The notes beneath the pieces are model-generated. The model was given only the letters and a program-made list of their open reading frames with translations, searched no databases and was not told where the DNA came from. Position numbers and translations under genes: made by a program. Positions 3,594 through 20,620 of a DNA stretch of 64,000 bases are shown here, piece by piece. Source of the stretch: a virus; IMG/VR virus record IMGVR_UViG_3300025617_000007, positions 1 to 64,000 of that record. One strand, 5' to 3'. How positions within the stretch are numbered: the first letter of the stretch is position 1; every line of letters starts with the position of its first letter.

Positions 3594-3606
3594 TTTACTT
3601 TTTATT

Positions 3607-4230: not shown

Positions 4231-4236
4231 ATAAAA

Positions 4237-5073
4237 TTAAATTTCCCAATTACTATTATTATACGAATTATCAATAAATTTATATAATTTTTTAGTTTTT
4301 TCATCGTCTTTATTATTCTGTCTCTCAACATTACATCCTTCTAAAGAACCGTGTTCAATATATTTTTTAATTGGAAACGTATGTCTTAAATTTTCTAACC
4401 ACTCATCATAGTTATTAAAGTCTTTATCCTCCTCAAAATACGTGACCACTCTCGGTCTTTTGTTTTTTGCAAAATACGCAGACACTGTGGTATCATCGCA
4501 CCATGTACCATATTCATCAATAAAATCAAAGAAATCATCACCAAAAAAATGTCTACGATATGAAATAGTTTTATAATGTTGTAAAATATCAACAAGTGAG
4601 TTTCTTTTTAGTGAAGAGTAATAATAATCTCTAGTATCACCGAAATGATTCGATAAAAGTCCATTCTCATCTCTAGACCTCATACCATCATATCCCACAA
4701 CATAATCAGGCCATTTTTCCCTATTTTTAATGTGTTCATTAACCATTTCTTCATGATAATACATATCATCATCAACCACTATAATTATGGTATCATCATT
4801 AACTATTCTCTTTACCGTTGGTAATAGTTTTGTAATAGAACCGTAATCATCGGTTCTAAAAATTTTCAACTTTTTATCGTCTATCATTTCTAACCATTCA
4901 GGTATAATATATTCATCACCATTCTTTGAATAAAAATTTGGTATATTCAGGTGAATTTCATAATTTTCATTATAATTTTGATTTAATAAAGATTCAATAC
5001 AGTATCTCATATCAAAATTATATTTACTATTTAACCTTTCAGGTATTGTTGTAAGTGTTATTATTACTTCCAT
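4237..5073 (-). CDS. GT-A fold glycosyltransferase
   Basis: This 278-aa protein begins with the strand IITLTTIPERL, typical of glycosyltransferase families that open with a TxxP-R motif. It carries YGSITKLLPTV at 78-88 and the metal-binding acidic cluster VVDDDMYY, with Asp101-103 as the DxD site for a nucleotide sugar. Basic and acidic residues further on (GDDFFDFIDEYG) may form the acceptor site. There is no membrane segment or signal peptide, so it would act in the host cytoplasm. It is 3 bases after the SAM methyltransferase gene and 6 bases before the sulfotransferase. The family is recognised only as GT-A; donor and acceptor are unknown. Confidence 0.7.
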   Translation of the reverse strand: MEVIITLTTIPERLNSKYNFDMRYCIESLLNQNYNENYEIHLNIPNFYSKNGDEYIIPEWLEMIDDKKLKIFRTDDYGSITKLLPTVKRIVNDDTIIIVVDDDMYYHEEMVNEHIKNREKWPDYVVGYDGMRSRDENGLLSNHFGDTRDYYYSSLKRNSLVDILQHYKTISYRRHFFGDDFFDFIDEYGTWCDDTTVSAYFAKNKRPRVVTYFEEDKDFNNYDEWLENLRHTFPIKKYIEHGSLEGCNVERQNNKDDEKTKKLYKFIDNSYNNSNWEI

Positions 5074-5076
5074 AAC

Positions 5077-5769
5077 TTATATTTTAACAAATACTGTTTG
5101 TCTACCCCATAAAACTTTAACATATCCGTTTTCAAGTAAATAAGGTGTTAATAATTTATCTTTACCGCCAGCGTCAGTATTAAAATCTGTATCATCAACC
5201 GATACTATGTGTATATCCGATAACTTATCCTGCGCAACTTTAAAAGCTTCTAAGTGTTTTTCAGCATATTGAGGTACCCCAACGTCCCATCCGTCTAAAT
5301 AAAGTAAATCAATCTTTTTATCGAAATTACGTAAAAATTCTATACCATCCATAGGTATATTAACATGAATATTGTCAGGAAAATCAGTCTTAAGATGATG
5401 TAAATATTGATTATGTAAGGTTTCTTTACACCTTTCATCGATATCCACAGTATATACCTCAAAACCTTCTTTAGAAAAAAAATGGGTTGAATGACCATCC
5501 TGACAACAAGGAGGAGCATCTTTAGTTTCAATATTATAACAATCGTCATAATAATTAATACAACCATCGGTCACTCCCGACCTGGTTGACCCAATTTCTA
5601 CCACAACGTTACCTCCAATAATTTTTAAAAGCTCAGAAGTTTTTTTTAACCACGGAGCAGGGTAGTTCCTAAAGTAATTTTCATAAGGTTTTAAAGGACT
5701 ATGGTCCCAATAAATTGTATTATACTTAAAATCATGTGCAGATTTTAATAGTTCTATAATTTTTTCCAT
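5077..5769 (-). CDS. Class I SAM-dependent methyltransferase
   Basis: This 230-aa protein shows a Rossmann-type SAM-binding pattern: VVVEIGSTRSG near 54-64 as motif I, EVYTVDIDER as the acidic strand that binds the ribose, and IDLLYLDGWD as motif IV. A Cys pair in DAPPCCQDGH is notable. The C-terminus has VSVDDTDF and a GGKDKLL loop. It looks like the Methyltransf_24-type group often found in polysaccharide clusters. It lies between the second GT60-like gene (4 bases) and the GT-A gene (3 bases), so it is probably co-translated with them. It could methylate a sugar of the phage-made glycan, which would make it a second methyltransferase beside the FkbM domain downstream. The substrate cannot be read from sequence. 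Confidence 0.7.
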   Translation of the reverse strand: MEKIIELLKSAHDFKYNTIYWDHSPLKPYENYFRNYPAPWLKKTSELLKIIGGNVVVEIGSTRSGVTDGCINYYDDCYNIETKDAPPCCQDGHSTHFFSKEGFEVYTVDIDERCKETLHNQYLHHLKTDFPDNIHVNIPMDGIEFLRNFDKKIDLLYLDGWDVGVPQYAEKHLEAFKVAQDKLSDIHIVSVDDTDFNTDAGGKDKLLTPYLLENGYVKVLWGRQTVFVKI

Positions 5770-5773: not shown

Positions 5774-7057
5774 TTATAATTTAAATTCTACTCGTTCCGC
5801 CCATCCTCGTTCTTTGGTTAATCCCCAGTAAACAACTTTGGAAGGATTTTTATCTGTTAAAAACATCTCTTCATAGTGTATAGGTTCACCATGTTTTAGG
5901 AACCTTTCTAATCTATGACCTTTTATATAATTATGGTTAACTCCAATTCCTTCATCATCATCAAATGCAATTAATATGGATTCGTAGTCATCTGCAGGTA
6001 ACATATCTCTCGTCACATTAACTAAATGGTAAAATGAGTACATAAACGATTTTTCCCATTCTTCTTCAGTTTCATAATTATATGGGTTCGGAGGAAATAA
6101 ATTATCTTTAGTGTATTTTTGAAAAGATTTATTTTTAAAATGAATTCCAGCATATTTTTCATAATCTCTAACAGTTCTAACGGTCCCTAATTCGTAACCC
6201 GTTAAATCATGACCATTATCTTCAACACCAAATAGTTGTCTAATTCTTGACCTTGCAATATCATTACCTTTCCACCATAAACTCTCACCTCGCTTACTTT
6301 GGTCATCCCAAACTAACTTTCCAGCTCTTTCTTCTCTCATCGTTGCATGCCATATCACAATCCTGTGAGGATGAAACAAATCATAACCATGGGTATATGA
6401 GCGCACCGTTAAATTAATCTCTTCACCCGCAAAGAAAATATTAGGGTCATGTCTCACTTCTTTCGCCCACTTATTAGGTCCAAATGCAAAGTGACCACTT
6501 AAGAATCTAGCAGGATATGGTTTATCTAAATGTTTCCAACCTCCTTTAACAGCTGTGGGTCTGATAAATATCGTCCCAAATGGGTAGAATGTCGCAGCTT
6601 CAGATTGCCAAGGTTCCTTAACTCGGTCATTAGGGTCGTTAAATGGGTTATAATATGGTAAGTATCCTCCAATTATTGGATTATAACCTTCTTTCTTTAA
6701 ATCATAATACCATTTAATTAATGTTTCGTCCCAATTTTCAGTAAACCTATGGTGTGAATCCAACTGACAAACAAAGTCTTCGTCAGTCAATAGTTGGTCA
6801 TTTATAATACCCCTTGCATATGCCAATCCCTTAGCTTCTTCATAAGGCATATCATATATTTTAAATCTAGGGTCATCACGATACTCATCCACATTATCAA
6901 ACCCATCTTCAGGATTAAATTGTCGACATATACCAAAATGTATTCTTTCAGGATGCTTAGCGTTTTCCAACGCACTTTTTATTGTAGGTATCAATTCAGG
7001 CTCACGATAAGCCGGTAAATGAACCAAAATTGTCATATTTTTTTTACTTTTTTTCAT
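5774..7057 (-). CDS. GT60-like glycosyltransferase (GlcNAc-transferase family), copy 2
   Basis: This 427-aa protein is a paralogue of the gene just upstream. Family features are the N-terminal strand VHLPAYREPELIPTI, the nucleotide-sugar site QLDSHHRFTENWD (Asp100-His102), and the later block AGEEINLTVRSYTHGYDLFHP, all matching the pattern of the GT60 GlcNAc-transferases. Known members add alpha-GlcNAc to hydroxyproline of Skp1 in Dictyostelium or to Thr in mucins of Trypanosoma cruzi. The annotated ATG overlaps the upstream gene by 14 bases. An in-frame ATG at 7036 (Met8) aligns better with the paralogue and leaves a 7-base gap, so it may be the true start. Both copies keep the DSH site, so both may be active, perhaps on different acceptors or in sequence. 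Assignment to GT60 is from motifs only. Confidence 0.75.
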   Translation of the reverse strand: MKKSKKNMTILVHLPAYREPELIPTIKSALENAKHPERIHFGICRQFNPEDGFDNVDEYRDDPRFKIYDMPYEEAKGLAYARGIINDQLLTDEDFVCQLDSHHRFTENWDETLIKWYYDLKKEGYNPIIGGYLPYYNPFNDPNDRVKEPWQSEAATFYPFGTIFIRPTAVKGGWKHLDKPYPARFLSGHFAFGPNKWAKEVRHDPNIFFAGEEINLTVRSYTHGYDLFHPHRIVIWHATMREERAGKLVWDDQSKRGESLWWKGNDIARSRIRQLFGVEDNGHDLTGYELGTVRTVRDYEKYAGIHFKNKSFQKYTKDNLFPPNPYNYETEEEWEKSFMYSFYHLVNVTRDMLPADDYESILIAFDDDEGIGVNHNYIKGHRLERFLKHGEPIHYEEMFLTDKNPSKVVYWGLTKERGWAERVEFKL

Positions 7058-8318
7058 ATAATGTTCCTTCCAATCTGTTTACCCACCCTTCTTTTATTGA
7101 GTGAGGCCAAACAATCCATTTATATGGTCGTTTCACGGTATTGAAACTTCTCCATACTCTACAGAACTTATCAGGGTCCTGTTTCATTCTTTTAATTTCA
7201 TTTTCATCAGCATCTTGTCTAAACAACTCATTTCCGTCCTCATCTTCAAATGCCACTGCCCATACGTTATAATCATCGTGAGGGACACTATCAAAATGGA
7301 TGTCAATACAATGTTTAAACGGAGTAGTAAACGCATTTTCATATTCTTCATCACTCTCAAATACAGGACATGGTGGGTCTAATTTGTCTGCAGTGTGTTG
7401 TAGAACCGCTCTTCTACTAAACTTAATACCTGAGTATCTCTCATACTCATCAATAGTTCTTTCATCACCTAAACCCCACGGACCAAACTCTTCAGGGTCG
7501 TAAATCTCACCATCAACACCCAATAACTTTCTATTTCTAACGTGTGAATTGTCGTTATTAGTTCCCCACGTATTATGGTCGTCCCAATGTTTTTTAAGTC
7601 CTTTACGTGTGTAATAATGCCATAAGAAAATTTTATGTGGATGTAATAAATCGTAACCGTGAGTGTATGCTCTCACTGCAATTGAAATTTCTTCACCGTG
7701 AAAATAATACTTAGGGTCGTGTTGGACTTTTTCAGCAAATTCCCCTAAAGTAAATGCAAAATGAGCTGAGTAAAATCTTGCAGGTATTGGTTCTGACCTT
7801 TCTTCAAAATCATCTATCGTTGAAGGTAAGAAATGTACATTCCCGTCAGGACTAAATCTATCAAAATCCATCCTCCACGGTTTCATAATTCTACTCTCAG
7901 GGTCATTATCAGGCTCAAATGAGGGCGCGTAACTGGTTAATAGGGGTTTTTTAATTCCGTTTTTAATTAACCTTTTTAGTTCTTTTTTTAACTCATAATC
8001 CCAATTCTCAATGAATCGTGTATGTGAATCTATTTGTAACGTATAAGTTTCACCATCATATAGTTGTTGTAATAAATTTCTAGCCCAACAAGCACCTTCA
8101 CTATCTTCATAAGGAATGTTAAGAATTCTAAACCTATCATCATCTTTATATTCATCTAAATTATCCCACTCATCTTCAGAACTATGTTGCCAAGCAATTC
8201 CAATTCTAAGATTGTCAGGATTTTTACATTTATCCAACATATCTTTAATTGTCGGTATCAATTGTGGGTCTCGGTAAGATGCTATTTGTACAAAAATAGT
8301 CTCAGGTTTACGTGCCAT
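7044..8318 (-). CDS. GT60-like glycosyltransferase (GlcNAc-transferase family), copy 1
   Basis: This 424-aa protein opens with IFVQIASYRDPQLIPTI, typical of GT60 enzymes, followed by LQIDSHTRFIENWD with the DSH donor site at 97-99, and FHGEEISIAVRAYTHGYDLLHP in the second half. These enzymes use UDP-GlcNAc and modify Thr, Ser or hydroxyproline in unfolded Pro-rich protein segments. It is the first gene of the glycan cassette. The 96 bases before its start hold a variant of the TATTTAT box (TATTTAA at 8348-8354) and separate it from the divergent plus-strand gene. Thr/Pro/Ser repeat proteins lie about 10 kb upstream and are obvious candidate acceptors (inference). It is the clearest enzyme in the cassette. 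Confidence 0.8.
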   Translation of the reverse strand: MARKPETIFVQIASYRDPQLIPTIKDMLDKCKNPDNLRIGIAWQHSSEDEWDNLDEYKDDDRFRILNIPYEDSEGACWARNLLQQLYDGETYTLQIDSHTRFIENWDYELKKELKRLIKNGIKKPLLTSYAPSFEPDNDPESRIMKPWRMDFDRFSPDGNVHFLPSTIDDFEERSEPIPARFYSAHFAFTLGEFAEKVQHDPKYYFHGEEISIAVRAYTHGYDLLHPHKIFLWHYYTRKGLKKHWDDHNTWGTNNDNSHVRNRKLLGVDGEIYDPEEFGPWGLGDERTIDEYERYSGIKFSRRAVLQHTADKLDPPCPVFESDEEYENAFTTPFKHCIDIHFDSVPHDDYNVWAVAFEDEDGNELFRQDADENEIKRMKQDPDKFCRVWRSFNTVKRPYKWIVWPHSIKEGWVNRLEGTLYEKK

Positions 8319-8400
8319 AATATATTATTTTAAATTTTATTCTTACATTAAATAATCACGAAAAATTAATGATTGTAAAGGTCTAAACATAAAAATCGAA

Positions 8401-8408
8401 TATTTATA
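8401..8408 (+). promoter_or_regulatory. TATTTATA box before the plus-strand gene
   Basis: This is the only box oriented on the plus strand, and it stands 6 bases before the only plus-strand gene, in the context GAATATTTATAAGTAAG. It is the best evidence that the box is directional and is read as TATTTAT in the direction of transcription. Confidence 0.55.
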
Positions 8409-8414
8409 AGTAAG

Positions 8415-8588
8415 ATGAAATTATTAAGAACCATACAGAAATTAGTAAACGAGGCTGAAGATAATTACTATAAGGCGTCCATAAGTTCTACAAGCACTAA
8501 AGAAGTGGAAGAACTGAAAGAGAAGTTAGATGCTAGTTTACAACTTTTAGAAATATATGAAAGGATTGAAATAAAAAAAGAGGACTAA
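8415..8588 (+). CDS. Small plus-strand protein, 57 aa, unknown function
   Basis: This is the only convincing gene on the plus strand. It encodes 57 residues beginning MKLLRTIQKLVNEAED and ending in a charged stretch, EVEELKEKLDASLQLLEIYE, that should form an amphipathic helix or short coiled coil. Support for expression is unusually good for so short a gene: a TATTTATA box ends 6 bases before the ATG, and the stop codon lies in the loop of a strong hairpin with a T-run. It sits alone between the divergent glycosyltransferase operon and the convergent fibre gene. I do not recognise the family. A regulator, a chaperone for the fibres, or a host-takeover protein are all open. Confidence 0.65.
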   Translation: MKLLRTIQKLVNEAEDNYYKASISSTSTKEVEELKEKLDASLQLLEIYERIEIKKED

Positions 8589-8603
8589 TAGTCCTCTTTT
8601 TTT
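8573..8603. terminator. Bidirectional terminator between convergent genes
   Basis: A near-perfect stem AAAAAAGAGGAC and GTCCTCTTTTTTT with a 5-base loop contains the stop codon of the plus-strand gene. A-runs and T-runs on both sides make it work in both directions. It separates the 57-aa gene from the end of the fibre gene at 8629. Confidence 0.85.
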
Positions 8604-8628
8604 ATATTTAATATTTTGTAAGTATATC

Positions 8629-10965
8629 TTATATACTTTGTGTACCTTTTGGATATTCCACAACCATCTTATCGATATCTTTTCTTTCGGCCTGTATAAA
8701 ATAGAAACATTTAATTTTTGAACTTAACAATGCCGAGTTATTAACTACAACCATATTTTCAAATATGTCTTTAACATATAGATTTTGATGTGACCCTATC
8801 GGAGTCAATTGTACCGTAATCGTACTTTCGTCTACCAAATCTATCCAATAATCAGGTAATTCAATAACATTATTACCATCTAATTTACCTCTCACATAAA
8901 CACCATGTTCTGGACCTTCTAAAGAACCATGTCTTAAATTAAATTCAGGTTTTGAGGGATGTTCTATTAAGAATGATTTAGAAGTCGCAAATAGGTTACC
9001 ATTACCGTCTACATTAAATATTTGAGAATTTCCACCGTCATAACCATCAATTAAAAATACACCAGGATTCGATGATTGTAACTCTAATACTGTAGTATAT
9101 GGGTCATCCGCTTCCATCCTAACTCTAGGACTCCTAACAGGTACATTATTATTGTTATAAACTTGGAAATATTCTTCCCCTACTGATTGAAATTCAAGAA
9201 TATAACCATTTTGATTTAAAAATCTATTACTTGTCAATAAACCGTCAGTACTATATATGTTAGTGTTTCCTGCAGATGTAATGTAACCCGCGTCATTATT
9301 AAATCCACTAATATTAATATTGGCTTTTGTTAACTTTCTTTGAACATTTGACGTATCAACCACAACAAAATAGTCTCCGTCACCATTTGTAGTTGACGTA
9401 GGTAATTCTGATAAATCAAGTGTAATATTAGGCGTTGTAGTTCCGTTGGTCACATCTAACCCTGTCCCAACAGTGACGTTAGTTACCGTACCTGAAGTAT
9501 TCGTAAATGGTAAATCAGAAACGAAACCTTTTTTAACGTTATTGTCTGTCGCATCGTGGTAAACTATCGTATCACCAAGTGCAATTCCTGTACCTTCAAG
9601 ATTCGTAGCCGAATCGATGAAGTTGTTAGTGCCTGTGTAGTCAAGAGCAACATCATTAGCGTTTACAACTATACCTGTTCCTGCACCTACATTGAGGGTT
9701 ACTGAACCACCTAAGGAAACTAAACCACCATTTGCTAAACCTGAACCAGCAGTTACCGTAAGTGAAGAGTTGGCTAGTGAACTATTAGGTACATTTGAAA
9801 GACCTAACGTAATCGTACCTGATGTTGTAATTGGCGAACCTGAGTCTACATCGATACCGTCAGTTCCTGAGATTGCCACCGAAGTAACAGTACCTGTATT
9901 TGTTGTGAATCCCGCGTCATTATTAAACCCACTTATATTAATATTACCTTTAGTTAGTTTTCTTTGAACATTTGAACTGTCAACCACAACAAAGAAGTCT
10001 CCATCTCCATTTGTTGTTGACGTGGCTAATTCTGATAAATCAAGTGTAATGTTAGGTGTTGTAGTTCCATTACTCACATCTAACCCTGTTCCAACAGTAA
10101 CTGAAGTTACCGTACCTGAGTTATTAGAGAATGGTAAATCTGAAATTAAACCTTTCTTAACATTATTGTCTGTAGCATCGTGGTAAATAATAGTATCAGA
10201 AGTAGCAATTGAAGTTCCTTCTAAGTTTGTTGCTGAGTCAATGAAGTTGTTAGTTCCCGAATAATCAAGAGCCACATCATTAGCGTTTACAACTATACCT
10301 GTTCCTACACCAACGTTAAGTGTTACAGAACCACCTAAAGAAACTGAACCTCCGTTCGCTAAACCTGAACCCGCAGTCACTGTAAGTGAAGAATTATCTA
10401 ATGAACTATTTGGTATACTATTGAGGTTAGCACCACTACCATTGAACGAACCAATCACTTGACCTTGGAATGTTGCATCTTTACTCGAAGAGTCAAAGGT
10501 CACTGCGGTTCCTGAATCACCATTGGTTGATAATATTAAATCATTATTAGAGAATATTCTGAAATTGTTAGACCCATCATTGTCAAATGCCCCAACATTG
10601 GTCATTCTAAGACCATCCCCATTCTGTGAAATTCTTAAAACGCTATTAGCATAAACAGTATCCGCAGTTATTGAAGTAAGACCCGCAATCGAAGATGCGG
10701 TGTCACCGAGTGAAATAGAAGTACTACCAAGTGTAAAAGAGGAATTATCTAAAGATGCGTTTGGTATAGTGTTAAAACTTACATTTCCCGAACCATTAGT
10801 GATTAAAACTTCATTAGCACCACCATCCGCAGTTGGAAATGAATAATCATTATTAAATGTTATTACACCACCTGTAGATACATTGATTCGGGTAACACCT
10901 CCTGATGTTAAATCAAGACCTGTCCCTCCTGTTCCTCCACTATAAAATACTCCGTTATTGGCCAT
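8629..10965 (-). CDS. Tail fibre protein with internal duplication
   Basis: This 778-aa protein is a modular fibre. The N-terminal half has beta-rich Gly/Ser/Thr/Asn segments. Two near-identical blocks of about 160 residues follow, each running from SSLTVTAGSGLANGG to INISGFNNDAG. The last 100 residues hold SLEGPEHGVYVRGKL and ITVQLTPIGSHQNLYV, a C-terminal module I associate with structural proteins of marine myoviruses. It probably forms an elongated trimer that ends in a receptor-binding or assembly domain. It is the last fibre gene in transcription order and ends against a bidirectional terminator. Its 118-base leader contains a TATTTAT box, a GC-rich hairpin and a purine-rich stretch before ATG. 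Confidence 0.8.
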   Translation of the reverse strand: MANNGVFYSGGTGGTGLDLTSGGVTRINVSTGGVITFNNDYSFPTADGGANEVLITNGSGNVSFNTIPNASLDNSSFTLGSTSISLGDTASSIAGLTSITADTVYANSVLRISQNGDGLRMTNVGAFDNDGSNNFRIFSNNDLILSTNGDSGTAVTFDSSSKDATFQGQVIGSFNGSGANLNSIPNSSLDNSSLTVTAGSGLANGGSVSLGGSVTLNVGVGTGIVVNANDVALDYSGTNNFIDSATNLEGTSIATSDTIIYHDATDNNVKKGLISDLPFSNNSGTVTSVTVGTGLDVSNGTTTPNITLDLSELATSTTNGDGDFFVVVDSSNVQRKLTKGNINISGFNNDAGFTTNTGTVTSVAISGTDGIDVDSGSPITTSGTITLGLSNVPNSSLANSSLTVTAGSGLANGGLVSLGGSVTLNVGAGTGIVVNANDVALDYTGTNNFIDSATNLEGTGIALGDTIVYHDATDNNVKKGFVSDLPFTNTSGTVTNVTVGTGLDVTNGTTTPNITLDLSELPTSTTNGDGDYFVVVDTSNVQRKLTKANINISGFNNDAGYITSAGNTNIYSTDGLLTSNRFLNQNGYILEFQSVGEEYFQVYNNNNVPVRSPRVRMEADDPYTTVLELQSSNPGVFLIDGYDGGNSQIFNVDGNGNLFATSKSFLIEHPSKPEFNLRHGSLEGPEHGVYVRGKLDGNNVIELPDYWIDLVDESTITVQLTPIGSHQNLYVKDIFENMVVVNNSALLSSKIKCFYFIQAERKDIDKMVVEYPKGTQSI
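9285..10400. repeat. Internal duplication in the fibre gene (two blocks of about 490 bp)
   Basis: Blocks at about 9285-9775 and 9905-10400 are near-identical in protein sequence (LANGG...VSLGGSVTLNVG; NVQRKLTK) and similar in DNA. They encode two consecutive shaft segments of about 160 residues. Boundaries are approximate. Confidence 0.85.
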
Positions 10966-10995
10966 TTTCTTTTTTTTTTCTTCTTTTTAGGCTTC

Positions 10996-11017
10996 GGGAG
11001 GGAAATGAATCCCTCCC
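10996..11017 (-). promoter_or_regulatory. GC-rich leader hairpin of the duplicated fibre gene
   Basis: An 8-bp stem GGGAGGGA and TCCCTCCC with a 6-base loop stands out in AT-rich DNA. No T-run follows on the minus strand, so it is probably not a terminator. It lies between the TATTTAT box and ATG and is followed by AGCCTAAAAAG, as in the leader at 14610. Confidence 0.5.
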
Positions 11018-11035
11018 ATTAATTATAGTCTATTG

Positions 11036-11042
11036 ATAAATA
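11036..11042 (-). promoter_or_regulatory. TATTTAT box before the duplicated fibre gene
   Basis: On the minus strand the context is AAAGTATTTATCAATAG. It lies 70 bases before ATG, on the far side of the GC-rich leader hairpin, so the hairpin would be in the 5' untranslated region. Confidence 0.45.
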
Positions 11043-11083
11043 CTTTCAATATAAAATATATTAGTTTTATTTATCTATTATTA

Positions 11084-13240
11084 TTAGATTACTTGAACCC
11101 AACCGAATGATTTGTAGATGTAAACACCTTCAGAGTTATTAAGTTGATAAACCATTAATCCCGTTGCCGGTGTTCCAATCGCTAATCTTTGAGCTTCTGT
11201 CATTCTTGGGAATAAGAAACCACTTGTTGTTGAAGCCACTTCTAACACCGCACTTGCGTCAGGTGAATTAGTACCTACACCAACTTGACCTCCAGCCACA
11301 TGTAAATCTGTAGTGTTAATGTCAAACCCAACATCAGTAAACGATAACGTATTACCGTTACCATCAAGTTGTCTGTTTGCAGATAACGTACCATCAGCAT
11401 TATAGATGTTAGTGTTAACTGAACTTGAAACAGATAAGTCAAGTTCGTCTGAACCTGAATTACCGGTAACGACAACAGAACCATCAGTTGAAGTGAATGT
11501 TAATGAACTTCCTAAAGAAACTACCGGGTCAGTACCTGTAGTACCAACATACGTCATAGACGAATTTGCCAATGAACTATTTGGTACGTTAGAAAGACCT
11601 AATGTTATTGTTCCTGAAGTTGTAATTGGTGAACCTGAATCTACGTCAATACCATCTGTTCCTGAAATTGCTACTGAAGTAACCGTACCTGAATTGTTTG
11701 AGAATGGTAAATCAGATACGCTATAATAATCAACATTATTAGACGCATTTGACACCATAATATTCCAATCAAGGTCAATTGGTCCTGTACCAGCACCACT
11801 AGCTAAGATTACGTTATCAGCACCTGCATAGTCCACATTTAAAGTTACTGAACTACCTAAGTCAACTGAACCACCATCTTGTAAACCTGAACCAGCAGTA
11901 ATTGTTACGCTATCGTTAACAAGTCTTGCATTTGCAATAGAACTGTCAATTAATGCCGCAGTTACTGACGCTCCTGCCGTTACCGTAAAGTTAATTTCAG
12001 ATGAATCTGTAAAGTTACCTGATGTAAATACATCAGCTAAAACCTCATTATTAAAGTCAGATACCTGAGAAGCTGTGATTGAGATTGATTGTTCACTTGC
12101 AGAAGTAATACGACCTTGTTGGTCAATTTGTAATGTTACCGTTTCAGACGCTGAACCGTAGTTACCAGTAGTTACCGCAGTATCATCAAGATTAAACGTA
12201 ATAGTACCCGTGTTGTTGTCCACAGTTGTAATACCTGTACCTCCATTGAAGTCAATAGTATCACCCATGTAGTATGTTGAAACACCTGAATCACCAGAAC
12301 TGTCAAAAGAGAATCCTGTAATATCTACATCCGATTGACTGTTATTTAGTCTTAATCTTAATGTACCATTTGAAGGTGAATTGATTGTACCACCTGTTAC
12401 GAATGAATCTACAGAACTCACATCAACCGTGAAGTCTAACGTATCCGTTCCTGAATTACCATTAATAACTACAGAACCATCAGATGAGGTAAGATTTAAT
12501 GTTCCACCTAAAGATACCACTGGGTCTGTACCACCCGCGTTGAATGTCATTGTGCTGTTTGCAAGTTTTGCGTTTGTTACATTATTATCTGCAATTTTAT
12601 CTGTTGTTACCGCTCCGTCAACTAATTCAGCCGTGTCTACTGTGTTTGCATCGATAGATGCTACAAGGTTAACATTTCCTGAACCATCGAATGATACCGC
12701 TGATGCAGTAATATCTCCACTGATTTCGAAGTTTCTAGCAGTCTCTAATGTGGTTGCGGTGTCAGCGTTACCCGTTAAGTCACCAGTAACATCACCTGTT
12801 AAATCACCAACAAAAGATGTTGAAGTGACAGAAGTTAATCCCGCCAATGTCGTTGCTGTATTACCTAAAGTGATAGATGTACTACCGATAGTTACATCAT
12901 CATTAGTTAGCTTCGCATTTGATACTGAGCCGTCCACTAATTGTGAACCGTTTATTGTTTTGTTTGTTAATGTTTGAGTTCCGTCCAAAGTGACAACATC
13001 ATCTCTCGTGGACAAAACACCATCAGCATCAGCTACTACATAATTAGAATCAGTACTACTAGATGCAAGACTTTCAAATCTAACACTACTTGTCGACCCT
13101 GTAGGGATTACGTGTAACATTGCCGCAGGTGCTAAGGTACCAAGACCCATTCTACCGACATCGTTAATAATCGCTCTTTCTACAGTACTCGTAGTAAACG
13201 TCAAACCTGAAGTTTGTAAATTTAAACCATTTGTTGCCAT
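11084..13240 (-). CDS. Tail fibre protein, PRMT-type C-terminus
   Basis: This 718-aa modular fibre has an N-terminal segment GLNLQTSGLTFTTST, long Thr/Ser/Asn/Gly repeats with motifs such as DLTGDVTGDLTGNADTATTL and ELVDGAVTTDKIAD, and a C-terminal module around FLFPRMTEAQRLAI ending YIYKSFGWVQVI. The C-terminal pattern (leucine, PRMT, then GLMVYQL and a Trp near the end) is common in Bacteroidetes cell-surface and phage fibre proteins. Blocks are shared with its neighbours: the block near 12435-12830 matches 15440-15830, and SGTDGIDVDSGSPITTSG also occurs in the gene at 8629-10965. It likely forms one of several distal fibres. It has no TATTTAT box, so it may be read through from the upstream fibre gene. 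Confidence 0.78.
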   Translation of the reverse strand: MATNGLNLQTSGLTFTTSTVERAIINDVGRMGLGTLAPAAMLHVIPTGSTSSVRFESLASSSTDSNYVVADADGVLSTRDDVVTLDGTQTLTNKTINGSQLVDGSVSNAKLTNDDVTIGSTSITLGNTATTLAGLTSVTSTSFVGDLTGDVTGDLTGNADTATTLETARNFEISGDITASAVSFDGSGNVNLVASIDANTVDTAELVDGAVTTDKIADNNVTNAKLANSTMTFNAGGTDPVVSLGGTLNLTSSDGSVVINGNSGTDTLDFTVDVSSVDSFVTGGTINSPSNGTLRLRLNNSQSDVDITGFSFDSSGDSGVSTYYMGDTIDFNGGTGITTVDNNTGTITFNLDDTAVTTGNYGSASETVTLQIDQQGRITSASEQSISITASQVSDFNNEVLADVFTSGNFTDSSEINFTVTAGASVTAALIDSSIANARLVNDSVTITAGSGLQDGGSVDLGSSVTLNVDYAGADNVILASGAGTGPIDLDWNIMVSNASNNVDYYSVSDLPFSNNSGTVTSVAISGTDGIDVDSGSPITTSGTITLGLSNVPNSSLANSSMTYVGTTGTDPVVSLGSSLTFTSTDGSVVVTGNSGSDELDLSVSSSVNTNIYNADGTLSANRQLDGNGNTLSFTDVGFDINTTDLHVAGGQVGVGTNSPDASAVLEVASTTSGFLFPRMTEAQRLAIGTPATGLMVYQLNNSEGVYIYKSFGWVQVI
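12435..12830. repeat. Fibre block shared with 15440-15830
   Basis: This block of about 390 bp encodes SGDITASAVSFDGSGNVNLV and DTAELVDGAVTT and recurs in the fibre gene at 14670-16724 with few changes. It shows exchange of shaft segments between fibre genes. Boundaries are approximate. Confidence 0.8.
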
Positions 13241-13289
13241 GTGTTTTTAATTTTTATTTATTTATTATCCCTATTATAAGTTAAGGCTA

Positions 13290-14573
13290 TTACAATACAT
13301 TTACCCATCCTAATGATTTATACATAAACATACCTTCCTTAGCGGTTGGTGTGTTATCCGTACAATAAACTATTAATCCCGGTATTAATGTGTGTTGGTT
13401 CTCTAAGTCTAATCTTTCAGCCTGTGTCATTCTAGGAATGAGTAGACCTTGATTCGTACTAGCTAACTCTAATAAGGCACATGTTGGAGATGTCGTCCCT
13501 GTCCCTATTGACACTCCAGACTCACCACTAAATGTTAAGTGGTTAGTATCTTGGTCAACAATACGGTCACCATTTAAAGTACCGTCATTGTTGTAAATAT
13601 TATTGGGGTCTTGTGGCTCATATACTCCACTACCACCATTGAATGTAATGACCTGTCCGTCAGTCGCACCTGATACAATGTCTTCTAAATTTGGTGAAAA
13701 TCCAGGTCTTGCAAATAATGAACCGTTAGGTGATGACTTTAGAACAATTGCCATCGCATTTCTATTATTTGGAGATAAAGGTTTAAATTTTGTTAACCCT
13801 CCAGGTCTGTTTGGGTCTCCATAAAGTATATCACCATCATTCCATACCTCACCGTTTTGACCTCTAGTATCTAAACCTTTGACCTCACCAAAAGCTGTAA
13901 CCCATCCATTACCTCCATCGTCAATGGATGATGTAGTAAGACCCATTATGTAATAGTTGGGAAATGAACCGTCAGTTATACCTGAAATAATAGTTATACG
14001 ACCTGAATTACCATCAGTACCTGAAGCCATTACTAAAGTACCATCTGGAATATTACTACCTGATTGGTTTTTCACTCTATACCACATTTCTTGACCCACT
14101 TGTAATGAAGTTCCATTAACGGAATTAAAAACCGTTAGTGAATCTGATGAGCTATCATAATAAACTTGTCCTTGTGGGTTAGTTGGTGGTGGAGTGTCTG
14201 TGGGAACAAATTCCATAGTATTAATACCAACCGTACCACCTGTTAAATGGAGTTTATTACCATCTAAATTTGAAAATCTCTCAGAAGTAAATGACGCATC
14301 TGTAGTATAGATATTAAGAGTGTTTGCCGAGGTGAAGAACCCTGTAACATTAAACGTACCACCTGAGTTATTAGTAAAAGTCGCAACTCCTGTTGTATCA
14401 TTGTAAGTTCCACCCGTAACAAATGTATCAGGTAATGAACTAATATCTCTATATTGAACCTCATTTCCATTAATGACCATAATGGAGTTGGCGTTAACGT
14501 TTAAGTCAACCGTAGAGATATACGTTTTCCCACTAACCGATAATCCATGTCTTGCTACAAACTCTTTTGCCAT
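13290..14573 (-). CDS. Tail fibre protein, shorter, PRMT-type C-terminus
   Basis: This 427-aa fibre begins MAKEFVARHGLSVSGKTY, close to the N-terminus of the next fibre upstream (MANELVARNGLRVSGSTF), so both likely attach to the same partner. The middle has a globular block with GQEMWYRVKNQSG, GEVKGLDTRGQNGEVWNDGD and GSLFARPGF, a domain type often seen in phage fibres. The C-terminus carries LLIPRMTQAERLDL and ends FMYKSLGWVNVL, like the gene downstream. The leader contains a GC-rich hairpin and the stretch AGCCTAAAAAG. Compared with its neighbours it lacks most of the Thr-rich shaft repeats, which suggests a shorter fibre. Confidence 0.77.
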   Translation of the reverse strand: MAKEFVARHGLSVSGKTYISTVDLNVNANSIMVINGNEVQYRDISSLPDTFVTGGTYNDTTGVATFTNNSGGTFNVTGFFTSANTLNIYTTDASFTSERFSNLDGNKLHLTGGTVGINTMEFVPTDTPPPTNPQGQVYYDSSSDSLTVFNSVNGTSLQVGQEMWYRVKNQSGSNIPDGTLVMASGTDGNSGRITIISGITDGSFPNYYIMGLTTSSIDDGGNGWVTAFGEVKGLDTRGQNGEVWNDGDILYGDPNRPGGLTKFKPLSPNNRNAMAIVLKSSPNGSLFARPGFSPNLEDIVSGATDGQVITFNGGSGVYEPQDPNNIYNNDGTLNGDRIVDQDTNHLTFSGESGVSIGTGTTSPTCALLELASTNQGLLIPRMTQAERLDLENQHTLIPGLIVYCTDNTPTAKEGMFMYKSLGWVNVL

Positions 14574-14609
14574 CTTATTATTTTTTTATTTCTTTTTCTT
14601 TTTAGGCTA

Positions 14610-14634
14610 TTGAGGGAAGGGGGACTTCCCTCAA
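14610..14634 (-). promoter_or_regulatory. GC-rich leader hairpin of the short fibre gene
   Basis: A 10-bp stem TTGAGGGAAG and CTTCCCTCAA with a 5-base loop lies 37 bases before ATG and is followed on the minus strand by TAGCCTAAAAAG. The layout repeats that at 10996-11017, suggesting a common leader element rather than chance. Confidence 0.5.
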
Positions 14635-14658
14635 AATTTTAATTATTTTATATAATTA

Positions 14659-14665
14659 CTAAATA
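14659..14665 (-). promoter_or_regulatory. Variant box TATTTAG before the short fibre gene
   Basis: Context on the minus strand is ACTATTTAGTAATTAT. It differs by one base from the common box and is 85 bases before ATG, again with a GC-rich hairpin between box and gene. It overlaps a small inverted repeat at the end of the previous gene. Confidence 0.3.
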
Positions 14666-14669
14666 GTAA

Positions 14670-16724
14670 TTAAACTATACTTACCGCTCTTGTGTTAGCA
14701 ATAACTGTTACAGTTGCACTATTTGAGTTAATTGTTACGTTACCTGCGTTATCCGCACTTAACTCAACACTATCACTAAACGTACCGATATCCATCGTTG
14801 ACCAGTCAGAATATTCTACAGTTCCTGCGTGGAATATTGCTGAAAAGAACCCTGAACGTGCTGCAGTTCCTTCGATAATTGTATATTCTACATGAACAGC
14901 TCTAAATTCGCTAACCGCAACATTAAATAATGCCGTATTAGCAGAACCTGTAGCTTCAACTCTAATCGTCTGTTCTGATGAAATTAAAACATCAGACGCC
15001 GATTGGTTTAACTCAAGAGTTGCCTCTCTGTAATCAACAGTAGCACCTGTAACAAAAGTATCAGTACCGTCAATACCCGTAATTGTTATATCACTTTCCG
15101 AAGTACCATTTAACTCTAAAGTAATTGTACCATCTGAGTAAGTACCTCCTGTAATAAAAGGTAATTCTACAGGTGAAGTAGCTAATGTCCCTGACCCGTC
15201 AAAAGCAACATCCCAACTACCGTAAGTAATACCTGTAATAGCATCTACAGTTAAGTTTGTTGTTTCTCCTGTATTACTTGTAAGTGTAATTACATTACTT
15301 GAAATACTACCACTTTCAATATGATTCCAAGACCCGTCAATTGTTATATCAACATTATTATTATCCGTTAATGTTAATACACCTGTGTTGTCAGTATAAG
15401 TTCCTCCCGTTATGAATGTATCAATATCTGCACTTACACTAAAATCTAATGTACCTGTTCCTGAGTTACCAACAATTACTACCGAACTATCAGATGAGGT
15501 AAGGTTTAAGGTACCACCTAAAGATATTACTGGGTCTGTACCACCTGCAGTAAATGTAATCTCACTGTTCTCAAGTTTTGCGTTAGTCACGTCACCATCC
15601 GCAATTTTTGCAGTTGTAACCGCTCCATCAACTAATTCAGCAGTGTCTACTGTGTCAGCGTCAATACTAGCTACAAGGTTAACGTTTCCTGAACCATCGA
15701 ATGAAACCGCACTTGCGGTAATATCTCCACTGATTTCGAAGTCTCTAGCAGTCTCTAATGTGGTTGCTGTGTCAGCGTTACCTGTTAAATCACCAATAAA
15801 AGATGTTGAAGTAACAGAAGTTAACCCATCTAAAGTAGTTGATGAACTACCTAATGTAATTACAGTTGTACCAACTGTGATTTCATCACTATCTAACTCT
15901 ACCGTTAATTGAGATAAACCGTTAGATGAAGTAGAAATACCAAGACCTCCGACAACGTCAAATTGAGAATCAAGATTAATTGTACCTGCAGAACCACTAT
16001 CAGCTCCAAAATACCATCTAAATGCGTCTAAGTTAAAGTCATTACCATCATTCAATGTAATAACTAAATCACCGTTATTTAATGTCATTCCAGTTGCAAA
16101 GGTATCAGAGTTTGTTGTTGAGAAACCTGTGATTGAGAAGTTGTTTTCTAAACCGTTATTTACTTCTAACTCTAAAGTACCTGTATTCAAGTCTAATGTT
16201 GCACCTGTAATGAAAGGTAATTCAACCGCTGGTGCCGACACACCTGTAGATGTTCCACTTAATGCCCAATCACCATCGTATCCTAAACCTGTAATCGCAT
16301 CGATAGTTAAATCTTGTGCAGTTCCACCGTTTTTAGTTACTGAGATTATGTTATTAGATTCCGTAATACCTGTTACGAAATCTGTACCTAATGATAAGTT
16401 AACTGTGTTACCATCATTTTTTGTTAAAGTTGCATCACCTGAATCTAAGTCAAATGAAGCACTTGTTACGTTTAAATTTACATCCGAAATCGTTACGGAT
16501 GAACCATCCGCCTGATTAAGAACTAAATCTTTGTTACCCGTTCCAGACAACGTACCGCCAGTTACAAAATCAGCCGAGAATGTGGCTAATGAGAGGTCTT
16601 TTACCTCATTATTTGACGAGTCAATCGCTAAAACAGACAATAGTGTTTGGTCAGTAGTTACGTTGCCTAAAAAGGTAGACCCCGACACTCTCAAACCATT
16701 TCTTGCTACTAATTCGTTTGCCAT
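14670..16724 (-). CDS. Tail fibre protein, shared N-terminal anchor
   Basis: This 684-aa fibre has the N-terminal anchor block (VARNGLRVSGSTFLGNV), repeated shaft segments such as FVTGGTLSGTGNKDLVLNQ and FITGATLDLNTGTLELEVN, a block shared with the gene at 11084-13240 (TARDFEISGDITASAVSFDG), and a C-terminal domain around VHVEYTIIEGTAARSGFFSA and VEYSDWSTMDIGT. That C-terminus resembles the end of the next gene upstream, so the two may bind related receptors or share a fold. The shaft is rich in beta-forming Thr/Gly/Asp repeats typical of trimeric fibres. It lies 15 bases after the gene at 16740-18410 and has no separate promoter box. Confidence 0.77.
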   Translation of the reverse strand: MANELVARNGLRVSGSTFLGNVTTDQTLLSVLAIDSSNNEVKDLSLATFSADFVTGGTLSGTGNKDLVLNQADGSSVTISDVNLNVTSASFDLDSGDATLTKNDGNTVNLSLGTDFVTGITESNNIISVTKNGGTAQDLTIDAITGLGYDGDWALSGTSTGVSAPAVELPFITGATLDLNTGTLELEVNNGLENNFSITGFSTTNSDTFATGMTLNNGDLVITLNDGNDFNLDAFRWYFGADSGSAGTINLDSQFDVVGGLGISTSSNGLSQLTVELDSDEITVGTTVITLGSSSTTLDGLTSVTSTSFIGDLTGNADTATTLETARDFEISGDITASAVSFDGSGNVNLVASIDADTVDTAELVDGAVTTAKIADGDVTNAKLENSEITFTAGGTDPVISLGGTLNLTSSDSSVVIVGNSGTGTLDFSVSADIDTFITGGTYTDNTGVLTLTDNNNVDITIDGSWNHIESGSISSNVITLTSNTGETTNLTVDAITGITYGSWDVAFDGSGTLATSPVELPFITGGTYSDGTITLELNGTSESDITITGIDGTDTFVTGATVDYREATLELNQSASDVLISSEQTIRVEATGSANTALFNVAVSEFRAVHVEYTIIEGTAARSGFFSAIFHAGTVEYSDWSTMDIGTFSDSVELSADNAGNVTINSNSATVTVIANTRAVSIV
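15440..15830. repeat. Fibre block shared with 12435-12830
   Basis: Second copy of the shared fibre block, in the same frame and in a comparable position in the shaft of its protein. Confidence 0.8.
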
Positions 16725-16739
16725 TTTTCTGTTTTTTAA

Positions 16740-18410
16740 TTATATTATATGTTTTATTATCCTAATATCCCAGGTCCCCCCTGAAATATTGGCTTTTAAC
16801 AATGCATTTTCATCTATCAACTCCATACCCCATACGAAGTTTGTTGTGTTCCCAATATCTACCGTTGAGAAATCATTGTATCTTATGGTTGTTCTATCCC
16901 ATACTGATTGAACTGTTCCTGCTCTGTAATTTGTTCCATCATCAATAACATAGTCAAAGAACGCCCCTTTATAAGTAGTAGCATCAACAGTGTCTATTGT
17001 TGTTCCACTTACTGAGACCGTACTTGTCGTTGAGGTCCCTATATGAGTAAGTATTTCTAACCCTGTTATAAGTGTAGAAGTTCCATCGTTATTTTCTAAA
17101 GTAATTTCACCGTTTGAGTAAGTACCACCTGTTATTGTTGGTGAAAATCCTGTCGCACTAAATTCAACACCGTCATTAAGTCCTAAGGTTAAAGTCTTAT
17201 CTAATTGATTATAACTTGTACCTGTAACGTAAGTATCTTCAGTAGTTCCTGTAGTAAATCCTGTAACTACTACCGTACCTTCATCATTTCTTGTTAATGT
17301 AAGACTACCTGTTGCATTATCATAATCACCACTTACCACATAAACATCTGTGGATTCAGGACCTGAAATCGTAATATCAGTTTCAAGACCACCAGCCATT
17401 TTAAGTATTATGTCAGGACCACTAAATGTTCCTCCCGTAATAAACGGTAAAAGAGTCGTACCTGAGGTACTATCAGTTAAGTCTTTAGTTACTCCCCATT
17501 CACTATTATAGGTAAGGGCAGATATTGCAACCTCACCCGATAAACTATCATTATACGAAATAACACCGTTCGTGTTAATAACTAAGGCTTTGTTTTCTGT
17601 AGAACTTGAAATACCTTTAATGGTTACTGTACCACCTCCCGATGAACCACTTAAAACTAAATCTGTCGATGTTAATGATAACCTTTCACCTGTCCCCCCA
17701 ATAATGTCTAAATCATTACCATCTAAATTAAGAACTCTACTACCATCTAAAGTTAAATCAGTATTCGCAATATTAGTGTCAACAATACCTGACGTAAATC
17801 CTGTTACATTAAAAGTCCCACCTGTTGTATTTGTAAATGTCGCAGTTCCCGTATTATTATCATACGTACCACCTGTTACAGTAATATCTGTTCCGTAGAA
17901 TATTCTCCATCTCGCATTTGAACGAGTAACACCACTTACACCCTCAATTGAAGAATCTAACCAAGCATCAATTAACGCTGCACCACCAGGTGTTGAAGTA
18001 GTTACTGTAGTACCATAATCAGATTCGGTAATAGACTCACCGGCACCGTCCCATAGTGATTCATAATTGGTAATGGTATACTGATATGTTAAGTTTGTTT
18101 CGTGAACATAAACTAACATACCTAACCTTCTACGACCAGTAGAAATGTTATCAGAGTTTAAGTTTACAGTGTCAGGTAAAAATGCTAGGGCTCTCTTTGA
18201 ATAGTTAATTGGTATGGTATTACCCGTAAATTCAATTAGACCCGTTTCTCCTTCAGGTATAGTAAAATCTAAATCGGCAAGTGTGTACACTTCCATGTAA
18301 CCACCAATCTGTAACACACTAAAATTACTACCAAAGACCTTATCTCTAGCAACCGAACTCGATGCGTCAAGTTGTGATGATGTTAATGGATTTTTATATA
18401 TAAACGACAT
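16740..18410 (-). CDS. Tail fibre or fibre-attachment protein
   Basis: This 556-aa protein has a distinct N-terminal 165 residues (MSFIYKNPLTSSQLDASSSV, then EVYTLADLDFTIPEGETGL), probably globular. Shaft repeats of the VTGGTYDNNTGTATFTNTTGG type follow, and the C-terminal domain has YKGAFFDYVIDDGTNYRAG and IRYNDFSTVDIGNTT, related to the end of the gene at 14670-16724. It is the first of the five fibre genes in transcription order and has a TATTTAT box 15 bases before its ATG. The different N-terminus suggests that it attaches the fibre set to the baseplate or mucin-like protein, but this is inference. Confidence 0.75.
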   Translation of the reverse strand: MSFIYKNPLTSSQLDASSSVARDKVFGSNFSVLQIGGYMEVYTLADLDFTIPEGETGLIEFTGNTIPINYSKRALAFLPDTVNLNSDNISTGRRRLGMLVYVHETNLTYQYTITNYESLWDGAGESITESDYGTTVTTSTPGGAALIDAWLDSSIEGVSGVTRSNARWRIFYGTDITVTGGTYDNNTGTATFTNTTGGTFNVTGFTSGIVDTNIANTDLTLDGSRVLNLDGNDLDIIGGTGERLSLTSTDLVLSGSSGGGTVTIKGISSSTENKALVINTNGVISYNDSLSGEVAISALTYNSEWGVTKDLTDSTSGTTLLPFITGGTFSGPDIILKMAGGLETDITISGPESTDVYVVSGDYDNATGSLTLTRNDEGTVVVTGFTTGTTEDTYVTGTSYNQLDKTLTLGLNDGVEFSATGFSPTITGGTYSNGEITLENNDGTSTLITGLEILTHIGTSTTSTVSVSGTTIDTVDATTYKGAFFDYVIDDGTNYRAGTVQSVWDRTTIRYNDFSTVDIGNTTNFVWGMELIDENALLKANISGGTWDIRIIKHII

Positions 18411-18425
18411 TTACTATTTTATTTT

Positions 18426-18432
18426 ATAAATA
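18426..18432 (-). promoter_or_regulatory. TATTTAT box before the first fibre gene
   Basis: Minus-strand context is CAAAGTATTTATAAAAT, 15 bases before the ATG at 18410. It lies in the only sizeable gap between the mucin-like gene and the fibre genes. Confidence 0.5.
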
Positions 18433-18475
18433 CTTTGATATCTCTAATCAAAAGTTTTTTTTTAGTTATTTTTTT

Positions 18476-20620
18476 TTAAGCCACCGTATTACCTTTAAAG
18501 TATATGGTGTTGTTACCATTATCAAAATACAAACCTGAACCAACAGTGTTTGTAGTATATAATCTGTATGTTCCATTAGCGAATGGTCCACCAGGATTTA
18601 CAATTGTACCTAAATTATAAACACTACTCATTACTGATGTTGTTAACGTAGTAGGTCCATTACCATTTGAATAATCTATAATAGTTTGTCTATTTCCTGA
18701 ACCAGTACCACCAATAGACTCATCAGGAATTAAGAACGAGTAATACACATTTCCACTCGCAGTCCCTGCAGGAATTTCAGTAGTAAAGAAGTTATATTGA
18801 TTAATTGAATTACCCTCACTATCTGTACCACCACCTGTTTGAGGTATTGTTTGCGATATAATTGATGGAACATTTCCTGTTCCTGCACTCGCAACGAAGA
18901 AGTTAACATAATCTGTAACATCTTGTAAATCAGCAATTGCTGTACCTGTACTAAATCCAAAGAAATTAGTTTGACCTTGATTACTCATATATGTACCAAT
19001 AATTGCAGCTAATGATGATGGTTCACTGATTATATACGCTGGCGCCAATCCTGCCTCACTAGGTGTTGGTGTAGGTGTTGGTGTTGATGATGGTGTAACA
19101 CTACTTGTTGGTGTTAATGATGGCGTTGGAGTAATACTAGTACTCGGTGTAATTGATGGTGTCGGCGTTACCGAAGATGTTGGTGTTACAGTAATACTAG
19201 GTGTTACCGATGGACTTGGTGTTACACTACTTGTCGGTGTTAATGATGGTGTAACTGTCGGAGTCACCGTAACCGTTGACGTAGGTGTTGGTGTTAAAGT
19301 CGGTGTTACTGAACTTGTAGGGGTAACACTATTTGTCGGTGTAATAGAAGGTGTTACTGAACTAGTCGGGGTCACTGACGGTGTTGATGTTACTGATGGT
19401 GTAGGCGTTACACTATTTGTCGGTGTAATTGACGGAGTAGGAGTAACACTACTTGTTGGCGTGATTGAGTTTGTTGGAGTAATAGACGGAGTTGGGCTAA
19501 CACTAATAGATGGTGTAACAGATGGCGTAGGACTCACACTAATAGATGGAGTAATTGATGGTGTAGGGGTAACACTATTTGTTGGAGTAACACTATTTGT
19601 TGGCGTAATTGATGGTGTAGGAGTTACTGAACTTGTAGGGGTAACACTATTTGTCGGAGTGATTGATTGTGTAGGAGTTACTGAACTTGTAGGGGTGATT
19701 GATGGAGTTGCAGTTACTGAAGGAGTAACTGTTTGTGACGGTGTTGGCGTCACACTACTAGTTGGTGTAATTGACGATGTTGGAGTAACACTTACACTAC
19801 TAGTCGGAGTAATTGACGATGTAGGAGTTACTGAACTTGTAGGAGTAATCGATGGTGTAGGGGTGATTGATGATGTTGGAGTAATCGATGGTGTAGGGGT
19901 GATTGATGATGTTGGAGTAACACTATTTGTTGGCGTAATTGATGGTGTTGGAGTAATACTCGGAGTTGGAGTAACACTATTGGTCGGAGTAATCGAACTT
20001 GTAGGAGTTATAGACGGAGTATTAGTTACTGACGGTGTCACACTACTTGTTGGCGTAATTGATTGGGTAGGAGTTATAGATGAAGTTGGAGTGATTGATG
20101 ATGTCGGCGTTATAGTTGTTGTTGGGGTAGGACTAACACTACTTGTTGGTGTTATAGTCGGCGTATTAGTAACTGATGGTGTAACAGTACTAGTTGGTGT
20201 AGGACTAACTTCACCACTTGACGGAGTAACCGATGGTGTAGGAGTATTTGTCGGTGTAACACTAACACTAATAGACATAGAAGGGGTAACTGAAGGAGTT
20301 ACTGTTGCAGTTGGACTAACACTTATAGACGGCGTATTTGTAGGGGTAATTGAAGGTGTAGGTGTAGGTGAAACATCATTGTCAAAAACAACTACGGGTT
20401 TTGAAATTGTTTCATCACCACAACCAGGTTGTTTATTTTGAACAAATATAGTATACTCAGTACCTGAAGGTGTACCTGGAAGGTCTAACTCAACACCTGC
20501 AATGATATGGTCACGTGTTTGTTGAGACTTTATAGGTGTTGTCAATGTGGAACCCGTGTATATATTAAACGGACCAATTGCGTTTGAACTTAATGTTAAT
20601 CTAATTATTACTTGTGACAT
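18476..20620 (-). CDS. Mucin-like Thr/Pro/Ser-repeat tail protein
   Basis: This 714-aa protein has three parts. Residues 1-80 are a small beta-rich domain ([20 protein letters not shown]). Residues about 84-520 are a low-complexity stretch built from hexapeptides of the type S-V/I-T-P-T-S/P/N, in the style of mucins. Residues about 525-714 are a globular domain rich in aromatic and Gly residues ([31 protein letters not shown]). The repeat has almost no charged residues and would be extended and disordered unless glycosylated. A TATTTAT box lies 20 bases before ATG. Its place between the adhesin and the fibres suggests a flexible stalk in the adhesion apparatus. With GT60-like enzymes in the same region, it is the leading candidate acceptor for phage-directed O-glycosylation (inference). 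Confidence 0.8.
19060..20372. repeat. 18-bp-unit tandem repeats of the mucin-like gene
   Basis: About 1.3 kb is built from variants of an 18-bp unit encoding S-V/I-T-P-T-x. Unit copies differ mainly at third codon positions, so protein repeats are kept while DNA drifts. Copy number probably varies between strains by slippage or recombination. Confidence 0.9.

Follow-up and report, generated by a model that had tools for sequence, protein, structure and literature searches.

Gene content of the locus

The window, meaning the whole stretch of DNA analysed, covers the initial 64 kb of the record of a large, aquatic bacteriophage, which is 138,593 bases long. This record matches Gp23, the T4-type portal, and GPW_gp25, and on these matches the phage is classified as a T4-like myovirus; a 505-aa protein of its structural region, used as a query, found no match among isolates. 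The baseplate is similar to that of Flavobacterium phages, and the leaders of the genes starting between positions 3593 and 26204 of the window are A-rich, with Shine-Dalgarno sequences being scarce. Together with the SprB repeats listed below, these traits point to a likely host among the Bacteroidota. The gene set scanned in the rest of the record, mostly from 64001-138593, also includes a match to an iron/manganese superoxide dismutase.

The features of the region are given below, where PTS stands for Pro/Thr/Ser, and G131 and G133 are the two gp6-baseplate-related records that hold a GT60 glycosyltransferase.

1..1152, minus strand: Hint/intein-like-domain protein, N-terminal 384 aa, the ORF being cut at position 1 by the contig end
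1218..3593, minus strand: three-domain enzyme, 791 aa, with FkbM methyltransferase, HtrL_YibB, and GT2 domains (Pfam E=3.6e-10, 5.1e-13, and 3.3e-5)
3607..4230, minus strand: sulfotransferase-like protein, 207 aa (PHROG 3347, E=0.003; motifs HVPKNGGTSFR and IRNPWEHAVSYYR)
4237..5073, minus strand: GT-A glycosyltransferase, 278 aa (PF00535, GT2, E=1.1e-4; homologues in 8/45 GT60 loci)
5077..5769, minus strand: probable SAM-dependent methyltransferase, 230 aa (Methyltransf_24, E=0.013; phrog_24975, E=1.5e-14)
5774..7057, minus strand: GT60 type B, 427 aa (PF11397, E=1.1e-47, 163.7 bits)
7044..8318, minus strand: GT60 type A, 424 aa (PF11397, E=2.2e-72, 244.9 bits)
8629..10965, minus strand: putative tail fibre, 778 aa (PHROG 17490 and 28536, function unknown; syntenic homologue adjoins GT60 in G133)
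11084..13240, minus strand: putative tail fibre, 718 aa (syntenic homologue in G133, E=2.5e-167)
13290..14573, minus strand: putative tail fibre, 427 aa (syntenic homologue in G133)
14670..16724, minus strand: putative tail fibre, 684 aa (syntenic homologue in G133)
16740..18410, minus strand: putative tail fibre, 556 aa (syntenic homologue in G133, E=3.1e-146)
18476..20620, minus strand: mucin-like protein, 714 aa, candidate acceptor (PTS span at 18977-20416)
20688..26204, minus strand: SprB-repeat protein, 1838 aa (PF13573, E=2.9e-14; two PTS linkers)

Every gene of the module region is thus on the minus strand, and the downstream order runs from the 1838-aa SprB/PTS protein through the 714-aa mucin-like protein, the five fibre-like proteins, and the GT60 enzymes of type A and type B, continuing with the methyltransferase, the GT-A enzyme, the sulfotransferase-like protein, the 791-aa FkbM/HtrL_YibB/GT2 enzyme, and ORF 1-1152.

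The tandem GT60 enzymes

The first-pass annotation described two tandem GT60-like transferases with DSH motifs, and this description holds: in an HMM search against PF11397, whose curated cut-off is 21 bits, both proteins score far above the threshold and fall inside the family. Their ORFs share a 14-base overlap, and in a tree built with a quick method they belong to separate clades. Type B forms a clade of its own with the second GT60 of three other loci (L036, L493, and L007), in all of which, as in the window, it is found directly downstream of another GT60. In type A, the DSH motif (D97-S98-H99) and H234 are invariant across 34 homologues, H234 being the putative catalytic C-His of retaining GT-A enzymes.

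The AlphaFold2 model of type A has a pLDDT of 93, and its top 45 fold matches in the PDB are ppGalNAc-transferases (E from 1.7e-10, TM about 0.48, identity 11-17%). The best of these matches correspond to GT27 catalytic domains, and Pfam finds no ricin-type lectin domain in the GT60 ORFs. A search for hydrophobic or membrane segments in the module enzymes found none, which fits enzymes working in the cytoplasm, the presumed site of virion assembly.

Hypermodification of the phage DNA with sugars would be another use for these enzymes, being a frequent role of phage glycosyltransferases according to work cited in PMC12619734. This explanation is extremely improbable, as the enzymes belong by family and by fold with polypeptide transferases, and their genes are linked to mucin and fibre genes. 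The thymidylate synthase family (PF00303), which covers the known hydroxymethylases, is absent from the phage record, itself possibly incomplete, and DNA hypermodification was set aside.

Neighbouring enzymes with a putative role in sugar decoration

The GT2/GT-A enzymes, methyltransferases, and sulfotransferase that had been reported from the interval 5774-20620 are real or plausible, but are located at 1218-5769, outside that interval. They differ in how firmly they can be assigned. Of the methyltransferases, the FkbM domain is clear from its Pfam match, whereas the protein at 5077-5769, with homologues in 3/45 GT60 loci, is tentatively assigned from its Methyltransf_24 match. The sulfotransferase call is likewise tentative, as it is based mainly on the two motifs next to a marginal PHROG match, and ORF 3607-4230 has no match in Pfam, NCBIfam, or the PDB. 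Since this protein was absent from all 45 other GT60 loci searched, sulfation would be particular to this lineage.

The HtrL_YibB and GT2 domains (HtrL-GT2) occupy 1218-2909, the C-terminal part of ORF 1218-3593. The match to HtrL_YibB (PF09612) reaches 49.7 bits against a curated cut-off of 24.1, and is far under the NCBIfam cut-off for the YibB equivalog, which makes the protein a member of the HtrL_YibB family rather than a YibB orthologue. Its model (pLDDT 87) contains two GT-A-like domains by fold, and the nearest folds are two-domain or collagen-modifying transferases (LH3, Mimivirus R699, LARGE1, and chondroitin polymerase), with TM-scores that are low (0.2-0.3) and support kinship at the level of GT-A.

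A second sugar cluster, at 92333-97815 of the phage record, encodes a GT2-pyruvyltransferase fusion, a GDP-fucose synthase-like enzyme, and a GDP-mannose 4,6-dehydratase, which makes the supply of sugars for a complex glycan plausible.

Mucin-like and fibre-like proteins

The PTS span of the 714-aa protein covers residues 69-548, and its 480 aa include 143 T, 109 S, and 99 P (252 Ser/Thr), with 'TPT' occurring 55 times and 'TPS' 34 times. The repetitive middle noticed in the first reading is therefore present, though somewhat longer than the approximately 435 residues given there. The span uses all four Thr and all four Pro codons, a mixture of synonymous codons that argues against a simple DNA-level repeat artefact and suggests that selection acts at the protein level. 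Random proteins with the composition of the window contained no PTS spans (0/300). Homologues of this protein with bigger PTS spans are encoded upstream of GT60 in G131, where they are directly adjacent, and in G133.

Proline makes up about one-fifth of the repeats, and the GT60 enzyme Gnt1 glycosylates hydroxyproline on Skp1 (PMC6939170). The phage GT60s could likewise target hydroxylated prolines of these repeats instead of Thr/Ser. This reading is very unlikely: no 2OG-Fe(II) oxygenase of the two Pfam families searched is found in the phage record, a point tempered by the fact that the host could supply the enzyme.

Other proteins of the phage carry similar sequences. The 1838-aa protein has PTS linkers at residues 171-303 (25296-25694) and 1476-1601 (21402-21779), and a larger second mucin-like protein of 1515 aa, 832 of them PTS residues, is encoded at 80220-84767 of the phage record. 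At the opposite end of the module, the Hint/intein-like domain of ORF 1-1152 has a weak Pfam match (PF14890, E=0.0057), and the same N-terminal domain is found at the same syntenic site in G131, where it opens a 2574-aa protein with 2063 PTS residues, and in G133, where the protein has 2443 aa and 1106 PTS residues. ORF 1-1152 thus probably encodes the beginning of a mucin-like protein that the contig end cuts short, and the module would probably be bracketed by mucins in the window too. Positions 1-127 recur exactly at 25815-25941, inside the gene of the 1838-aa protein, and this 127-base repeat makes it probable that the contig stops where the assembly broke off in a repeated domain. The Hint-like N-terminus of the phage mucin-like proteins (window 1-1152, minus strand; L649 1615-9339; L651 5808-13139) has no obvious catalytic Cys/Ser at the start of the domain, and self-processing is possible.

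Linkage of GT60 to PTS genes across viral loci

An IMG/VR alignment scan with four phage GT60s retrieved at least 584 homologues, in comparison with one locus from a single-sequence scan. The 80 loci kept, plus the one from the earlier scan, gave 81, which were reduced to 45 by clustering at 85% GT60 identity. A PTS ORF is found within 10 kb of GT60 in 54/81 loci and in 27/45 of the non-redundant set. Among controls, the loci with such an ORF were 0/80 for relatives of nrdA, 0/73 for relatives of the gp6 baseplate protein, and 7/119 for Gly/Ala low-complexity proteins (p=6e-13 or smaller for 27/45 against each set); as the GT60 loci were picked by similarity to the GT60 of the window phage, and the controls differ in lineage and position, these proportions are not population estimates. 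Close-relative records without GT60, which are fragments with the PTS pattern near the ends in several cases, were not scored against the linkage.

The PTS ORFs also have a preferred position, being found at gene position -1 from GT60 in 11/45 cases, at -2 in 10/42, at -3 in 3/41, and at -4 in 7/40. This bias amounts to 24/128 genes at -1 to -3 against 0/135 at +1 to +3 (p=9e-9). A smaller second peak at +4 to +7 is in part due to a protein family that shares a conserved domain of 120 aa at the N-terminus (MEFFIKKNATLPVLKMQVVKDGR), for which Pfam gives no match. The domain is present in 23/45 GT60 loci, 2/80 HtrL loci, and 0/359 control or bacterial loci; it occurs alone or joined to PTS sequence, the latter in 7 proteins of the 45 GT60 loci. 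The phage record holds two ORFs with it:

79852-80205 and 80220-84767 of the phage record (L088, L089): ORFs with the MEFFIKKNATLPVLKMQVVKDGR domain

In the reverse test, based on records with the TPTPTPTP pattern, GT60 was found in 9/51 records with PTS ORFs and in 0/50 controls (p=0.003), an association weaker than that seen by adjacency; the remaining 42/51 PTS-bearing records, which showed no GT60, count against the link, though many of them are fragments. Taken together, the gene data indicate that the link between GT60 and PTS genes exceeds mere co-location.

The partner conserved in most of these loci is HtrL-GT2, present on the same strand in 40/45 of them, while HtrL-GT2 used as bait recovers GT60 in 71/80 loci. 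By these counts, HtrL_YibB-GT2 is the most conserved partner of GT60; the first-pass annotation missed it, along with the further mucin-like genes and the probable truncation of one of them at position 1. The arrangement is at its simplest in G131, where a mucin (2891 aa), GT60, HtrL-GT2, and the 2574-aa mucin form a contiguous block with nothing intervening. G133 mirrors the window, with a 1625-aa protein, a mucin, five fibres, GT60, an enzyme-like ORF, a methyltransferase, HtrL-GT2, and the 2443-aa mucin.

Loci for surface polysaccharides commonly contain glycosyltransferase clusters and FkbM-type enzymes. The module enzymes could accordingly act on glycans or glycoproteins of the host surface, leading to receptor change, superinfection exclusion, or seroconversion, and not on virion proteins. 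The 18/45 GT60 loci with no PTS ORF within 10 kb, some of them in glycosyltransferase clusters, fit this possibility and suggest that GT60 may have other acceptors too. Even so, action on the host surface is an unlikely explanation for the locus, where the mucin and fibre genes of the phage itself bracket enzymes devoid of membrane segments, and characterised GT60 relatives modify polypeptides (PMC7185993, PMC6939170).

GT60 in bacteria

For bacterial GT60, 80 loci were kept, with the caveat that MAG contigs may contain phage sequence. PTS genes adjoin GT60 in Saprospiraceae (L492, with a T9SS sorting domain), Jiulongibacter (L497), Vicinamibacterales (L515, where the PTS gene overlaps the enzyme gene), Sphingomonas (L529 and L531), and others, and their products are probably exported. 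In five loci (L514, L515, L517, L556, and L564) a single ORF matches both GT60 and HtrL-GT2, as verified with Pfam for L515. A Gemmatimonadota ORF (L533, 6720-7478) directly upstream of GT60 has a PqqD-like middle, recognised by eye, and a PTS tail at its end.

In the GT60 tree, obtained with a quick method, phage and bacterial sequences are interleaved, and its well-supported branches force at least six changes. PTS genes and glycosyltransferase genes are variable and move horizontally, and might simply pile up in a variable tail-fibre region without acting jointly. Such a chance neighbourhood is highly improbable in view of the preferred order and strand, the reciprocal linkage of GT60 and HtrL-GT2, the minimal mucin-GT60-HtrL-mucin block, the recurrence in bacteria, and the single-chain GT60-HtrL fusions.

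Proposed mechanism and implications

The locus is probably a phage-encoded module for mucin-type protein O-glycosylation, in which GT60 starts the glycans and HtrL-GT2 and other enzymes extend and decorate them on mucin-like virion proteins. The proposal that GT60 acts on the mucin-like proteins of the phage is strongly supported by the flanking PTS genes and their preferred position, the ppGalNAc-transferase-like fold, and the bacterial pairing. The steps that follow are inferred, from the activity of the enzymes and their donor to the acceptor residue, the order in which sugars are added, the place in the virion, and the role. After translation, in the host cytoplasm, both GT60s would attach an initial sugar to Thr/Ser within the (S/T)-P-(S/T) repeats that the mucin-like proteins contain, and perhaps to the fibres as well; going by other members of the family, this sugar would be alpha-GlcNAc, with UDP-GlcNAc as its donor. 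The two-domain HtrL_YibB-GT2 would then attach the next sugars, with a lineage-specific finishing by other glycosyltransferases, FkbM or other methyltransferases, and perhaps the sulfotransferase in this phage, or a carbamoyltransferase in other lineages. The glycosylated proteins would finally be incorporated into the tail or the periphery of the capsid, where they would form a sugar coat or long stalks that resist proteases. The earlier reading, in which the phage glycosylates its own tail proteins and then methylates and sulfates the sugars, is partly supported: its core, glycosylation of the phage's own mucin-like proteins by GT60, is backed by GT60 membership, the linkage and position bias of PTS genes, the fold, and the bacterial pairing.

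Since the arrangement recurs in many other viruses and some bacteria, it is probable that these viruses cover some parts of their virions with sugars. A broader proposal, for which the chances appear evenly balanced, is that GT60 and HtrL_YibB-GT2 constitute a widespread undescribed prokaryotic mucin system: a mobile two-enzyme cassette for dedicated mucin-like proteins, swapped between large phages, which would use it for virion coats, and bacteria of several phyla, which would use it for exported mucins, with phage mucins being a general class of virion surface.

Virion protein O-glycosylation is documented in few phages. If the module reading is correct, hundreds of large aquatic phages would produce mucins, using an initiating enzyme that they encode themselves; HtrL_YibB, whose annotation is 'unknown function', would gain a testable role as second transferase; and E. 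coli could serve for the study of mucin-type transferases that are soluble and cytoplasmic. The long Thr/Pro/Ser repeats seen in many phage proteins would also receive an explanation open to testing.

Comparison with known systems

The literature search found no paper on a phage GT60 and no biochemical data for any such enzyme. Among 50,697 phage records searched by tblastn, GT60 was found only in XacN1, RAS14, and CM1, and RAS14 also carries HtrL-GT2. XacN1, a Xanthomonas jumbo phage, resembles the window in encoding a GT60 (ORF334), HtrL-GT2 (ORF330), and, in ORF350, a protein with 295 PTS residues, and differs from it in having a single GT60 and an adjoining carbamoyltransferase. The paper on this phage reported at least two glycoproteins from proteomic analysis and suggested the phage's glycosyltransferases as their makers; the main text leaves these glycoproteins unnamed and assigns neither family nor substrate to ORF334 (PMC5852040).

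In mycobacteriophages, phage-encoded glycosyltransferases sugar-coat virion proteins (Freeman et al. 2023, cited in PMC12619734). There, going by that citation, the C-termini of capsid and tail-tube subunits are modified, whereas in the window the predicted targets are dedicated mucin-like proteins and the putative initiators are GT60 enzymes.

The animal and apicomplexan ppGalNAc-transferases (GT27) offer the nearest solved folds, share the DxH motif with the phage enzymes, and act on mucin-like acceptors, as predicted for the latter (PMC7185993). The phage GT60s, in contrast, belong to another sequence family, have no lectin domain match and no Golgi, and share the low identity noted above in the fold matches.

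The closest counterparts by family are the GT60 polypeptide alpha-GlcNAc-transferases, namely ppGlcNAcT from T. cruzi and Gnt1 from Dictyostelium and Toxoplasma, with which the phage enzymes share the DxH motif and the Pfam family, one known for the glycosylation of mucins and Skp1 in protists. In contrast to these, the GT60s of the window are phage-encoded and in tandem, occur together with HtrL_YibB and with mucin-like proteins of the phage, and have a predicted substrate and donor. The Skp1 pathway, where the cytoplasmic GT60 enzyme Gnt1 is followed by the bifunctional PgtA (PMC6939170), provides a parallel to the order proposed here, with a two-domain second transferase, HtrL-GT2, following the phage GT60.
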